Assembly: GCA_030750465.1 (NCBI GenBank) | Contig: JASMHZ010000015.1 | Location: 1-32,322, forward strand | Direction: 5' to 3' | From: Candidatus Peribacteraceae bacterium | GTDB taxonomy: Bacteria; Patescibacteriota; Gracilibacteria; Peribacterales; Peribacteraceae | DNA length: 32,322 nucleotides | In this document: in pieces, positions 11,958-21,532 of the stretch | Numbering within the stretch: position 1 is the stretch's first letter | Layout of the letters: each line of letters opens with the position of its first letter | Notes under the pieces: model-generated | Told to the model about the DNA's origin: nothing | The model's input: only the letters and a program-made list of their open reading frames with translations | The model's database searches: none | Position numbers and translations under genes: made by a program

Positions 11958-14036
11958 ATGTCTAATTACTTTCTAAAGTACGGCATCCTTTGGATATGCG
12001 CCATAACCCTCGCGGCAGCTGCTTGCCCCGTTGATGCGAATGCTCAGGCGGTCATAAGCGAAGTTATGTGGATGGGTTCAGATATGTCTAGTGCAGACGA
12101 GTGGATAGAGATTGCAAACACTTCAACCGGAGCAGTTGATCTTTCGGGATGGGAAATAAGCTATTTAAGTTCAGGTGAGGAAAAAATAATGTTTACATTT
12201 CCAGAAGAGTTTAATCTGAGCGCAGAGGAGTTTGGCATAATTAGTAATTACGATTTGGATAAGTCCAGATTGAGTGATGAGCCGATATTTATATCATCTT
12301 CCATTAGTCTTCCGAACTCCAAACTTCTAATTAGTTTAATCGATGATGAGGGAAATCTAATTGATCAAATTGATGATGGAGTGGGTGTTCCTTTTGCCGG
12401 GAGCAAGTCTCCTTTTGCGAGCATGGAGCGGATTGATTTGAGAGCTTCAGGATTGGATCCGGATAATTGGAGAACGGCTGATCAATCCAGAGGATTTGAT
12501 GATGGGGCAGAGATTTATGGAAGTCCGGGATATTATGAGGAGCCAAAGGAAACAGAAGAACCAGAAGAACCAGAGGAGTCAAATAATGATAGTACACAAG
12601 AGTCAGATGATTCTGTAGGGGCACAGCCTGGTCAGATTATTCCTAATGTATATATTTCAGAAATTCTTCCGAACCCCGAAGGGAAGGATGATGGTGAGTG
12701 GATTGAAATTGTTAATGATGAGAATTTCGAAGTCGATGTTTCCAATTGGATTATTAAACGAAGTGGAGATAAATATAATTTTAATGATTATTCTTTGGGC
12801 CCAAAAAGCATTGCAGTATTTATGAAGTCAGAAACCGAACTTAGTCTAAAAAATTCCGGCGATACAATAGAAATATTTAGCGGGTCAATTCTGATAGACT
12901 CTTTTTCATATCCGACTGCGCACGACGAAGTCAGCTTCGGTCGAAAAACAGGAGACAAAAATTCATTTGCCTCATATTGCGTACCGACTAAAGGTGAACT
13001 TAATCAGGTCAAGAAATTGTATCCGCGAATACTTGTTGAATCTGGAAAAAAGCGTGCAGAGGCCAAGGTGACATTAAATTTTAAAGCTATATCTGATCAT
13101 GGATCACTGAATTCTGCGAGTTGCGTTTGGAATTATGATGATGGATTCGAGAGCTACAAATGTAATCCACCGTCTCATATTTTCAGTGAAGTGGGAGCTT
13201 ATGCAGTTACTCTAAGCGTGGAAACGGTGTGCGGGAACTTCGAAGAAGCGACGGAGTATGTTGAGGTTTTTGAGAAAGAGAAAAAAGAGTTAAAAGAGTT
13301 AAAAGAGATAAAAGAGAAAAAAGATGAGGGCGTGTCATCTAACTTGAGGTGGTTCGAACCCGAACCCGAATTAAAATGCACCCCAACAACCTCAACAGGA
13401 ATTGCAATAACACAAATTTTTCCATCACCATCAGTTGGAGAAGAGTGGATAGAGATTGAAAATCAGACTGATGAAATATTCAATTTATGCGGATGGATTT
13501 TGGATGATGTTTTGGATGGAGGAAGTAAACCGTGGACTTTCGAAGACATTTCAATTCAACCGTCAGAAAAAATTAAATTAATGCAAGGCCAAACAAAAAT
13601 TTCACTTAACAATACCGGTGATGAAGTTTGGCTGATTTCTTCTGATGGAAGTTTTAAAACAGGATTCGAGTTTAAAAAAATCGATAAAGACGAAACCTTC
13701 GGCTTCGCCCAGCCCATCCTAGTGCATAGCTCTTCTTCTACACCTGGCGGGTATTGGGAAAAGGATGGGCTGGATGGAGCCGAGATAATTGCTGAAAAAA
13801 AGCCTCAACCTCCTTTGGAACGGAGATATAAAAATATTATTCCATCTGTTTTGGCAGAAGATTCTATCGAAGAAAGAGTTATGACTGGCGTTTTTAAAAG
13901 TTTAAATATTGTGGATGAAAATGAGGCGGTAATGAGATCTGATGATGCCAATTCGATGGGTTTTGAAGTGTTCGTAGTGGTAATTGGAGTGATTTCTTCC
14001 GTCGGGCTATTCGCTCTTAAGGTTTTGAAAGGATGA
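11958..14036 (+). CDS. Secreted lamin-tail-domain (LTD) and PKD protein, C-terminally anchored
   Basis: A 692-residue protein with a signal peptide (about 1-30, ending ANAQA), three lamin-tail domains, one PKD-like domain and a C-terminal membrane helix (about 670-690). The LTDs start near 30 (ISEVMWMGS...DEWIEIAN), 230 (ISEILPNPEG...GEWIEIVN) and 470 (ITQIFPSPSVGEEWIEIEN). The PKD-like part (about 355-435) has CVWNYDDGFESYKC and GAYAVTLSV. LTD/PKD proteins are usually cell-surface or extracellular. Linkers are low-complexity: a Glu/Pro linker (about 197-208) is encoded by GAAACAGAAGAACCAGA words like the intergenic hairpins, and a KELKELKEIKEK linker by AAAGAGTTA words. The TGA stop overlaps the RAYT start (ATGA). 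Confidence 0.85.
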   Translation: MSNYFLKYGILWICAITLAAAACPVDANAQAVISEVMWMGSDMSSADEWIEIANTSTGAVDLSGWEISYLSSGEEKIMFTFPEEFNLSAEEFGIISNYDLDKSRLSDEPIFISSSISLPNSKLLISLIDDEGNLIDQIDDGVGVPFAGSKSPFASMERIDLRASGLDPDNWRTADQSRGFDDGAEIYGSPGYYEEPKETEEPEEPEESNNDSTQESDDSVGAQPGQIIPNVYISEILPNPEGKDDGEWIEIVNDENFEVDVSNWIIKRSGDKYNFNDYSLGPKSIAVFMKSETELSLKNSGDTIEIFSGSILIDSFSYPTAHDEVSFGRKTGDKNSFASYCVPTKGELNQVKKLYPRILVESGKKRAEAKVTLNFKAISDHGSLNSASCVWNYDDGFESYKCNPPSHIFSEVGAYAVTLSVETVCGNFEEATEYVEVFEKEKKELKELKEIKEKKDEGVSSNLRWFEPEPELKCTPTTSTGIAITQIFPSPSVGEEWIEIENQTDEIFNLCGWILDDVLDGGSKPWTFEDISIQPSEKIKLMQGQTKISLNNTGDEVWLISSDGSFKTGFEFKKIDKDETFGFAQPILVHSSSSTPGGYWEKDGLDGAEIIAEKKPQPPLERRYKNIIPSVLAEDSIEERVMTGVFKSLNIVDENEAVMRSDDANSMGFEVFVVVIGVISSVGLFALKVLKG

Positions 14037-14620
14037 GATACAATAATTTGCCTTATAGAAAATCAATTCGCATGAAAATGCACGATTACATGTCAGGAAA
14101 ATATTTTGTTACTATTAATACTTGCAAAAAAGTTTCTACCTTTGGAGTTATAAAAAATGAGGAAATGATTTTGAGTGAATGGGGAGAAATAGTAAGAGAA
14201 GAATGGAGTCGTACTGCAGAACTAAGATCGAATGTGAAGCTGGATGCATTTCAAATTATGCCGAATCATTTTCATGGAATCATTGAGATTGATTTTGTTT
14301 GGCCATTATTATATTTGCATGAAGAAATTGCGGAGGGAATTCGTACGGACACGATGCATCGTGTCCGTACAAAAGATCAATCTTCATTTAATCCAGCCAA
14401 TTTAAATTGCAGAAAATTTGGCAAGCCAATTTCGAATTCATTACCCACGATTATTGGAAGATTCAAAGCTGCCTGCACACGCCGCATAAGCATTCTAGAA
14501 AATTATCAATGCGTGAGAGTATGGCATCGAGGATATTATGAGCGCCTCATCAAAAATAATAATGAATTAGAAGCAATTCGCAGATACATAATTAATAATC
14601 CAAATAGATGGGAAAAATGA
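14033..14620 (+). CDS. REP-associated tyrosine transposase (RAYT, Y1/IS200-like)
   Basis: A 195-residue Y1-type transposase. The N-terminal YRKSIRMKMHDYMSGKYFVTI matches the conserved RAYT opening and so supports ATG 14033, four bases inside the end of the LTD gene. The HUH-type metal motif is MPNHFHGII (His79, His81). The likely nucleophile is Tyr168 or Tyr169 in HRGYYERLI, and SLPTIIGRFKAACTRRI precedes it. RAYTs are single-copy domesticated relatives of IS200/IS605 transposases that act on REP palindromes. A perfect 28-bp palindrome lies in frame at 14343-14370 (coding RTDTMHRVRT) in the variable loop, and a 38-bp one begins right after the stop. Key catalytic residues look intact. Confidence 0.92.
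   Translation: MRYNNLPYRKSIRMKMHDYMSGKYFVTINTCKKVSTFGVIKNEEMILSEWGEIVREEWSRTAELRSNVKLDAFQIMPNHFHGIIEIDFVWPLLYLHEEIAEGIRTDTMHRVRTKDQSSFNPANLNCRKFGKPISNSLPTIIGRFKAACTRRISILENYQCVRVWHRGYYERLIKNNNELEAIRRYIINNPNRWEK
14343..14370. repeat. REP-like perfect palindrome inside the RAYT gene
   Basis: A 28-bp perfect palindrome: GTACGGACACGATG followed by its exact reverse complement. It lies in frame in the transposase between the HFH motif and the tyrosine region. Confidence 0.95.
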
Positions 14621-14658
14621 TGTATGTACGGGCACGATGCATCGTGCCCGTACATACA
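14621..14658. repeat. REP-like perfect palindrome after the RAYT stop
   Basis: A 38-bp perfect palindrome beginning at the base after TGA: TGTATGTACGGGCACGATG followed by its exact reverse complement. Its 28-bp core (14626-14653) equals the internal copy except at one base pair (G14632-C14647 here against A14349-T14364), a compensatory change. Confidence 0.95.
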
Positions 14659-20812: not shown

Positions 20813-21532
20813 TCAGTCGCCTGAGAAGAAGTACCTCGCGTTGCCGTCGTGGGCTCGCGCCCACGCCTTCCACTCGCGTGAAGGGCCGGACTCGATCACG
20901 ACCACGTTAGGGTCGCTATCGGGAACCACGATGACGGGGGGAGTGATGACTCCGCCACTAGTGACGGCTCCGCCGTCACAGACCGCGGCACCGATCCCAA
21001 TGAGACCAGCGCCGGCGACCAACGTGCCGACGACCAACGCGGCCAGTACCAGAGCGCATAGGACCCACAGAGGGGTCATGCTGTTGCTGGAACCGCCACT
21101 GCCACCGGACGAGCCGGTGTCACCCGTGTCACCCTTGTCGCCCTTCGGACCCTTCGGTCCGGGGCCACCCTTCAGACCTTTCAGTCCGGGTTTACCGGGC
21201 TTACCGGGTTTGCCATCCTTCGGCCCTTTCGATCCTGAAATCAGCTTGACTTTGGGCTTCTTCGGATCGTCGGGCTTCTTGAGCGGCGCAGGCTTCTTGG
21301 GTGGCGCGGGCGGCTTGGGAGCGAGTCCCAAGTCGAGCGGGCTGGGCCCCTTCTTAACGAAGGGACACGGCTTGCCTGTTGGATACTTGTCGACGAGCTT
21401 GTAGGCCGCGTCGAGAAAAGCATCCCTGCTGTCCTTTTTAGGGGCCAGCTTGCAGGCCACCGCCGTTGCGATACTCAGATCTTTTTCCATCTTTCTGATG
21501 GCTGCCAGAAGTTTCGTTCGATTCATCGTCAT
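20813..21532 (-). CDS. Collagen-like single-TM protein, G+C-rich, likely acquired
   Basis: A 239-residue protein. A small helical N-terminal domain (about 1-60, two Cys) is followed by a Pro/Lys linker (60-98), a collagen-type Gly-x-y region (about 100-141, e.g. GKPGKPGKPGLKGLKG), a Gly/Ser spacer, one membrane helix (about 153-176) and a polar C-terminus of about 60 residues. Gly-x-y repeats form triple helices in bacterial and phage surface fibres. The gene is strongly G+C-rich (39 of 60 bases at 20941-21000) unlike its neighbours. It has the only good Shine-Dalgarno in the window (AGGAG, 21545-21541, eight bases before ATG), a consensus promoter and a clean terminator, so transfer from a phage or other bacterium is likely. 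An assembly chimera is a lesser possibility. Confidence 0.82.
   Translation of the reverse strand: MTMNRTKLLAAIRKMEKDLSIATAVACKLAPKKDSRDAFLDAAYKLVDKYPTGKPCPFVKKGPSPLDLGLAPKPPAPPKKPAPLKKPDDPKKPKVKLISGSKGPKDGKPGKPGKPGLKGLKGGPGPKGPKGDKGDTGDTGSSGGSGGSSNSMTPLWVLCALVLAALVVGTLVAGAGLIGIGAAVCDGGAVTSGGVITPPVIVVPDSDPNVVVIESGPSREWKAWARAHDGNARYFFSGD

Follow-up and report, generated by a model that had tools for sequence, protein, structure and literature searches.

A predicted cognate REP palindrome lies in frame within a RAYT transposase gene of a Patescibacteria genome and has counterparts in homologues across phyla

Few short repeats are as common in bacteria as REPs, and how RAYT transposases maintain and spread them is an unsettled question, on which the gene described here bears. 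The closest described system is TnpAREP subclass 2.4. Quentin et al. (2018; PMC6006769) already describe REPs within genes of this subclass, so that the arrangement at our locus is not new; in their view the in-gene REP probably affects the protein little, and they give for the subclass a REP foot consensus of GT[AG]G, found at both ends in the double-foot type. With a GTAC foot, cleavage is lost in the S. maltophilia TnpAREP and redirected in that of Marinomonas (PMC8266576).

Other systems share some of these features. E. coli TnpAREP (subclass 2.2; PDB 4er8) resembles our protein in its HUH-Tyr fold and its association with REPs, but its REP has a bulge and a GTAG foot, its loop is short, and no in-gene REP has been reported for it. 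The TnpA proteins of IS200/IS605 (IS608, ISDra2) have the same Y1 HUH fold and recognise subterminal hairpins; they belong to transposing elements with defined ends, whereas at our locus neither such ends nor multiple copies were found. Intragenic REPs and the Rickettsia palindromic elements (PMC3733652) are also palindromic repeats lying in frame in coding genes, but there the host genes are unrelated ones, whereas here the host gene encodes the enzyme for which the palindrome is the presumed substrate. From classical REPs, with their many dispersed extragenic copies, our palindrome differs in occupying two places in an assembly of 1.0 Mb that is 82% complete.

The gene (14033..14620, + strand) lies within a window, the whole stretch of DNA analysed, of 32,322 nucleotides. 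Like members of subclass 2.4 (PMC6006769), its product has a length-variable insertion between beta3 and alphaC (residues 87-136) and lacks a C-terminal extension after the core, and the gene carries an in-frame REP between HuH and Y (14343-14370, residues 104-113) that is long, has a foot at both ends, is accompanied by a flanking REP and belongs to a type scattered across phyla. Unlike them, it has the foot GTAC instead of GT[AG]G, its genome is without dispersed copies and the only flanking copy found is downstream. On this anatomy and on REP-bearing relatives across phyla, rather than on the profiles of PMC6006769, the gene is probably a TnpAREP/RAYT of the subclass 2.4 kind and the internal palindrome its predicted cognate REP, set in a loop predicted to be disordered. 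In the main texts consulted on these REPs, we found neither DNA-level conservation, nor cognacy, nor a REP type that tracks the RAYT tree, nor palindromes in a second Y1 subfamily; judged from sequence comparison, the novelty lies in the conservation of the internal REP at the DNA level between bacteria that are only remotely related.

The gene, its protein and its two palindromes

The open frame encodes 195 amino acids, with H79-F-H81, W164, a predicted catalytic Tyr185 and N189. Its identification as a RAYT, proposed in the preliminary description, is supported by the Pfam family Y1_Tnp, which scores over its cut-off, and by NCBIfam REP_Tyr_transpos (NF047646), matched in two separate stretches at E 1.1e-14 and 54.6 bits, below the cut-off of 80. 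A profile of 46 homologues matched a single sequence in the PDB, that of 4er8, with Tyr185 aligned to its Y115, and Foldseek matched the model of the protein to ISDra2, IS608 and 4er8. H79 and H81 are invariant in both of our alignments (A1 and A2), Y185 is invariant in A1 and present in at least 90% of A2, and W164 and N189 are conserved; in A1 the protein stops 6 residues past N189, so leaving no C-terminal extension. In the AlphaFold model, whose mean pLDDT is 84, the core is confident, and the variable loop, residues 87-136 between the HUH strand (79-86) and a helix (137-156), is predicted to be disordered over about residues 90-135, mostly at pLDDT about 50-57; the DNA encoding the loop spans 14291..14440 (+ strand).

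The start codon of the gene overlaps the stop of an upstream LTD/PKD-domain gene (ATGA, 14033-14036), and translation of the RAYT may thus be coupled to that of its neighbour. In one genome of the same genus (G400) no RAYT was detected. Elsewhere in the window, on the minus strand at 20813-21532, a predicted protein of 239 aa contains a glycine repeat resembling that of collagen (GPKGPKGDKGD...), in what is a Patescibacteria genome.

The palindromes are as the preliminary description had them. Within the gene, in frame, is the perfect 28-bp palindrome GTACGGACACGATGCATCGTGTCCGTAC (14343-14370), which reaches 34 bp (14340-14373) if one mismatch is allowed and encodes R104-T113 (RTDTMHRVRT), residues that fall inside the predicted disordered loop; its placing in the variable loop that separates HUH from the Tyr region, also claimed earlier, is borne out to the extent that the model defines that loop. 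The second, a perfect 38-bp palindrome TGTATGTACGGGCACGATGCATCGTGCCCGTACATACA (14621-14658), begins at the base adjoining the stop codon TGA (14618-14620). The 28-bp cores of the two are identical except at one pair, which differs on both arms: A-T in the gene (14349/14364), G-C downstream (14632/14647). Both copies have a GTAC foot at both ends, and either strand of each folds, as DNA, into a hairpin whose stability greatly exceeds that of shuffled sequences (z -6.4 to -10). A search upstream of the gene found no REP, leaving the downstream copy as the only flanking one found. Inspection of the sequence 3' of 14621-14658 revealed no T-run, and an intrinsic terminator was rejected on that ground.

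Palindromes in the source genome and among homologues

Counts of palindromes in the source genome, a Patescibacteria assembly, are those returned by searches with defined patterns. The 20-bp core, with up to 3 mismatches allowed, has only two matches in the 1.0 Mb (82% complete), one of them intragenic, so the palindrome is no dispersed repeat here; searches with this core and with the pattern GTAGRG..CYCTAC together rule out a dispersed REP family in this genome. The preliminary description had named a lack of further copies in the genome as grounds for refutation: none appeared beyond the two, yet the homologues still back the reading.

A second RAYT gene (C11:84155-84733; locus L037, G000:C11:82655-86233), 37% identical to the first, carries GTAGAGACGTCCCGCCGGGACGTCTCTAC in the same loop, where it is the single occurrence of the GTAGRG..CYCTAC palindrome in the 1.0 Mb. 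A third Y1 gene (C11:39064), more distantly related, holds a 30-bp perfect palindrome, also present once in the genome, in a different loop, between the post-HUH helix and the Tyr region; 3 of the 4 relatives examined have a palindrome in that loop. Each of the three Y1 transposases in the source genome holds its own palindrome, and all occurrences of the two foot-tagged families searched are confined to RAYT genes or their flanks. The third gene (L004/L159, G000:C11:39034-39465) belongs to another Y1 subfamily, with the motif LPDHMH and the relatives L160, L161 and L162; in L160 a similar copy of the palindrome lies 15 nt past the stop, and in L162 the palindrome is GTAG-tagged.

No second high-identity copy of the focal RAYT was found in the source genome, again at 82% completeness. 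Neither was an empty site: 39 other genomes of the family lack a homologue of the downstream gene, and in G400 the LTD-domain orthologue runs off the end of its contig.

Homologues were drawn from 380 genomes of the phylum and from the GTDB species collection, scanned with patterns made of the HUH and N-terminal motifs alone, so that the patterns were free of bias from the REP. The resulting 128 distinct full-length genes are a sample and include relatives that do not count as independent. In 57 of them an internal palindrome scores 12 or higher, a value reached by none of 1280 codon-preserving shuffles and by 20 of 530 other ORFs at the same loci; 49 of the 50 strong palindromes that could be mapped lie in the region from HUH to Tyr. 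When shorter stems are allowed and a foot is demanded (GTAG, GTAC or CTAC), a loop hairpin is found in 94/128 genes versus 11/640 shuffles, the focal gene being left out of this count because its stem extension hides the foot. The preliminary description had asked whether homologues carry REPs of their own in this loop, and by either measure many do. The median position of the internal REP is 19 aa past HUH, and reading frames 0 and 1 are used, never the one that turns GTAG into a TAG stop. Carriers in the survey belong to the Cyanobacteria, Chloroflexi, Nitrospira, Planctomycetes, Acidobacteria, Bacteroidetes/Chlorobi, Calditrichaeota, Gemmatimonadetes, Proteobacteria and Patescibacteria. Within the phylum, RAYT-bearing genomes contain few such palindromes (0-48 in total); in RAYT-free genomes matches to the loose pattern are mostly non-palindromic, real ones occurring in a few (e.g. 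G135, G207).

The notion of a REP as a clean, length-adding insertion step found no support in the length comparison, the loop measuring 68 aa with a REP and 67-71 aa without, and was set aside for this reason. Some loops are unusual. In four Peribacteria-family RAYTs (L193, L197, L198, L024) the loop resembles two REP half-arms, with VETxRR ... VST peptides, tens of residues apart, as if insertion or expansion had occurred within a REP; two others (L199, L201) have tandem peptide expansions in REP-containing loops (SSENIV repeats and SGSFIPTSTSD repeats); and in a Caldithrix RAYT (L120) a run of N falls exactly at the REP loop, possibly an assembly gap caused by a palindrome.

Conservation, cognacy and the compensated pair

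Where aligned residues are identical, their codons are identical in 92% of cases inside the REP versus 45% outside, the REP value being the higher in all 19 of the independent gene pairs. This test on pairs with no gene in common repeats one over all pairs (449/490 versus 2641/5756), and was made to allow for the relatedness of the sequences. The RAYTs L100, L135, L143 and L156, which come from four phyla and are 60-67% identical, have identical 28-base REPs, at one position and in one frame. Internal and flanking REPs are of one type at 21 of 25 loci, versus 2% for comparisons between loci, which bears out the claim that the internal and flanking copies belong together. REP similarity also tracks RAYT similarity when the REP-encoded residues are excluded (Mantel r 0.43, equalled in 0 of 2000 permutations). 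On a tree built with the REP masked, the focal RAYT groups with L079, L082, L083, L085, L091 and L098 (SH-aLRT 93); it shares a GG[GA]CAC-type arm with the first five of these, the REP of L098 being different, and the foot in most of these relatives is GTAG.

On the tree, the internal REP comes or goes in at least 31 steps (41 on average, and never fewer than 31, in shuffles) and is thus often gained and lost; REP type requires 54 changes versus a shuffle minimum of 61. Internal REPs, it appears from these reconstructions, turn over, yet while present stay matched to sequence fitting their enzyme. They may be conserved where they lie or kept alike by copying from cognate REPs, two processes that the present data do not separate. 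The DNA conservation of the internal REP and its match to the flanking copy suggest upkeep through recognition between enzyme and substrate.

The compensated pair had been offered as a mark of selection for pairing or of repair by copying. Across loci, internal and external REPs differ on both arms in 36 cases and on one arm in 37, and double-arm changes so frequent exceed what would be expected if mutations were independent. The pair at our locus is by itself no proof of selection, because REPs of the focal clade vary between G-C and A-T at that position (GGGCACG and GGACAC-type arms) and because double-arm changes would be predicted equally by selection for pairing and by template-switch repair between arms.

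Origin and upkeep of the internal REP

We propose the following course of events. Either strand of each palindrome can form a strong hairpin; among homologues, the internal and flanking REPs of a locus are of the same type, that type follows the RAYT phylogeny, and the internal REP is conserved as DNA well beyond the protein it encodes. This conservation would arise from the RAYT recognising the single strand in its folded form, together with copying between cognate REPs. REPs would arrive through the enzyme moving or copying them into nearby single-stranded DNA, and the gene would survive only when a REP lands in an unstructured loop with the frame kept. Gene and substrate would then move as one unit, so that a horizontally transferred RAYT would bring its own REP, even to a REP-free genome, as here. 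The RAYT may act on its own gene, as the sequence had led us to predict, though canonical cleavage is uncertain with a GTAC foot.

A more passive origin is rather unlikely. On this account a RAYT scatters REPs into nearby single-stranded DNA, the loop tolerates them, and the internal copy is a recent arrival without a role that has simply not been lost yet. The predicted disorder of the loop and the turnover of REP presence on the tree accord with it, as do the many unrelated genes with intragenic REPs described in PMC3733652, and it is also how Quentin et al. (PMC6006769) read the arrangement. It does not readily explain why RAYTs of four phyla should keep the same REP at one position and in one frame, why DNA conservation should be in excess in every independent pair, or why the two palindrome families searched in the source genome should be confined to RAYT genes or flanks.

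Autoregulation, in which the RAYT would bind a hairpin in its own mRNA or in single-stranded DNA of its gene and so limit its own expression, draws on the strong folding of both strands, on conservation at the DNA level and on the match of REP to protein type; the palindrome, however, is deep within the frame, away from the start, and many RAYTs of the same group do without one, which makes this improbable. Still less credible is selection on the peptide, with the palindrome incidental to residues that serve the protein: within REP types the peptide is indeed kept, but two reading frames yield unrelated peptides, codons are conserved far beyond what the amino acids need, and the loop is predicted to be disordered. 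Chance, a faulty assembly or a hairpin with some unrelated role, as regulator or terminator, can be dismissed, for although the downstream copy sits directly 3' of the stop, as a terminator might, it lacks the T-run, no codon shuffle reached the palindrome score, and the same arrangement recurs in many independent assemblies.

Upkeep by recognition, the reading we prefer, leads to a broader view that we put forward tentatively: the internal REP may be a maintained, functional part of the gene, enzyme and site being inherited together, such that a single gene could seed or control a REP system, and the source genome may represent its minimal form, with a changed foot, GTAC, that should shift the cleavage site. 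The case for a minimal form is that its three Y1 genes have private palindromes and that the searches for dispersed REPs of those types found none. If internal REPs are kept by recognition, each gene would directly record the hairpin that its enzyme recognises, and the REP specificity of a RAYT could be read from its sequence, even where dispersed REPs are lacking, as in the source genome.
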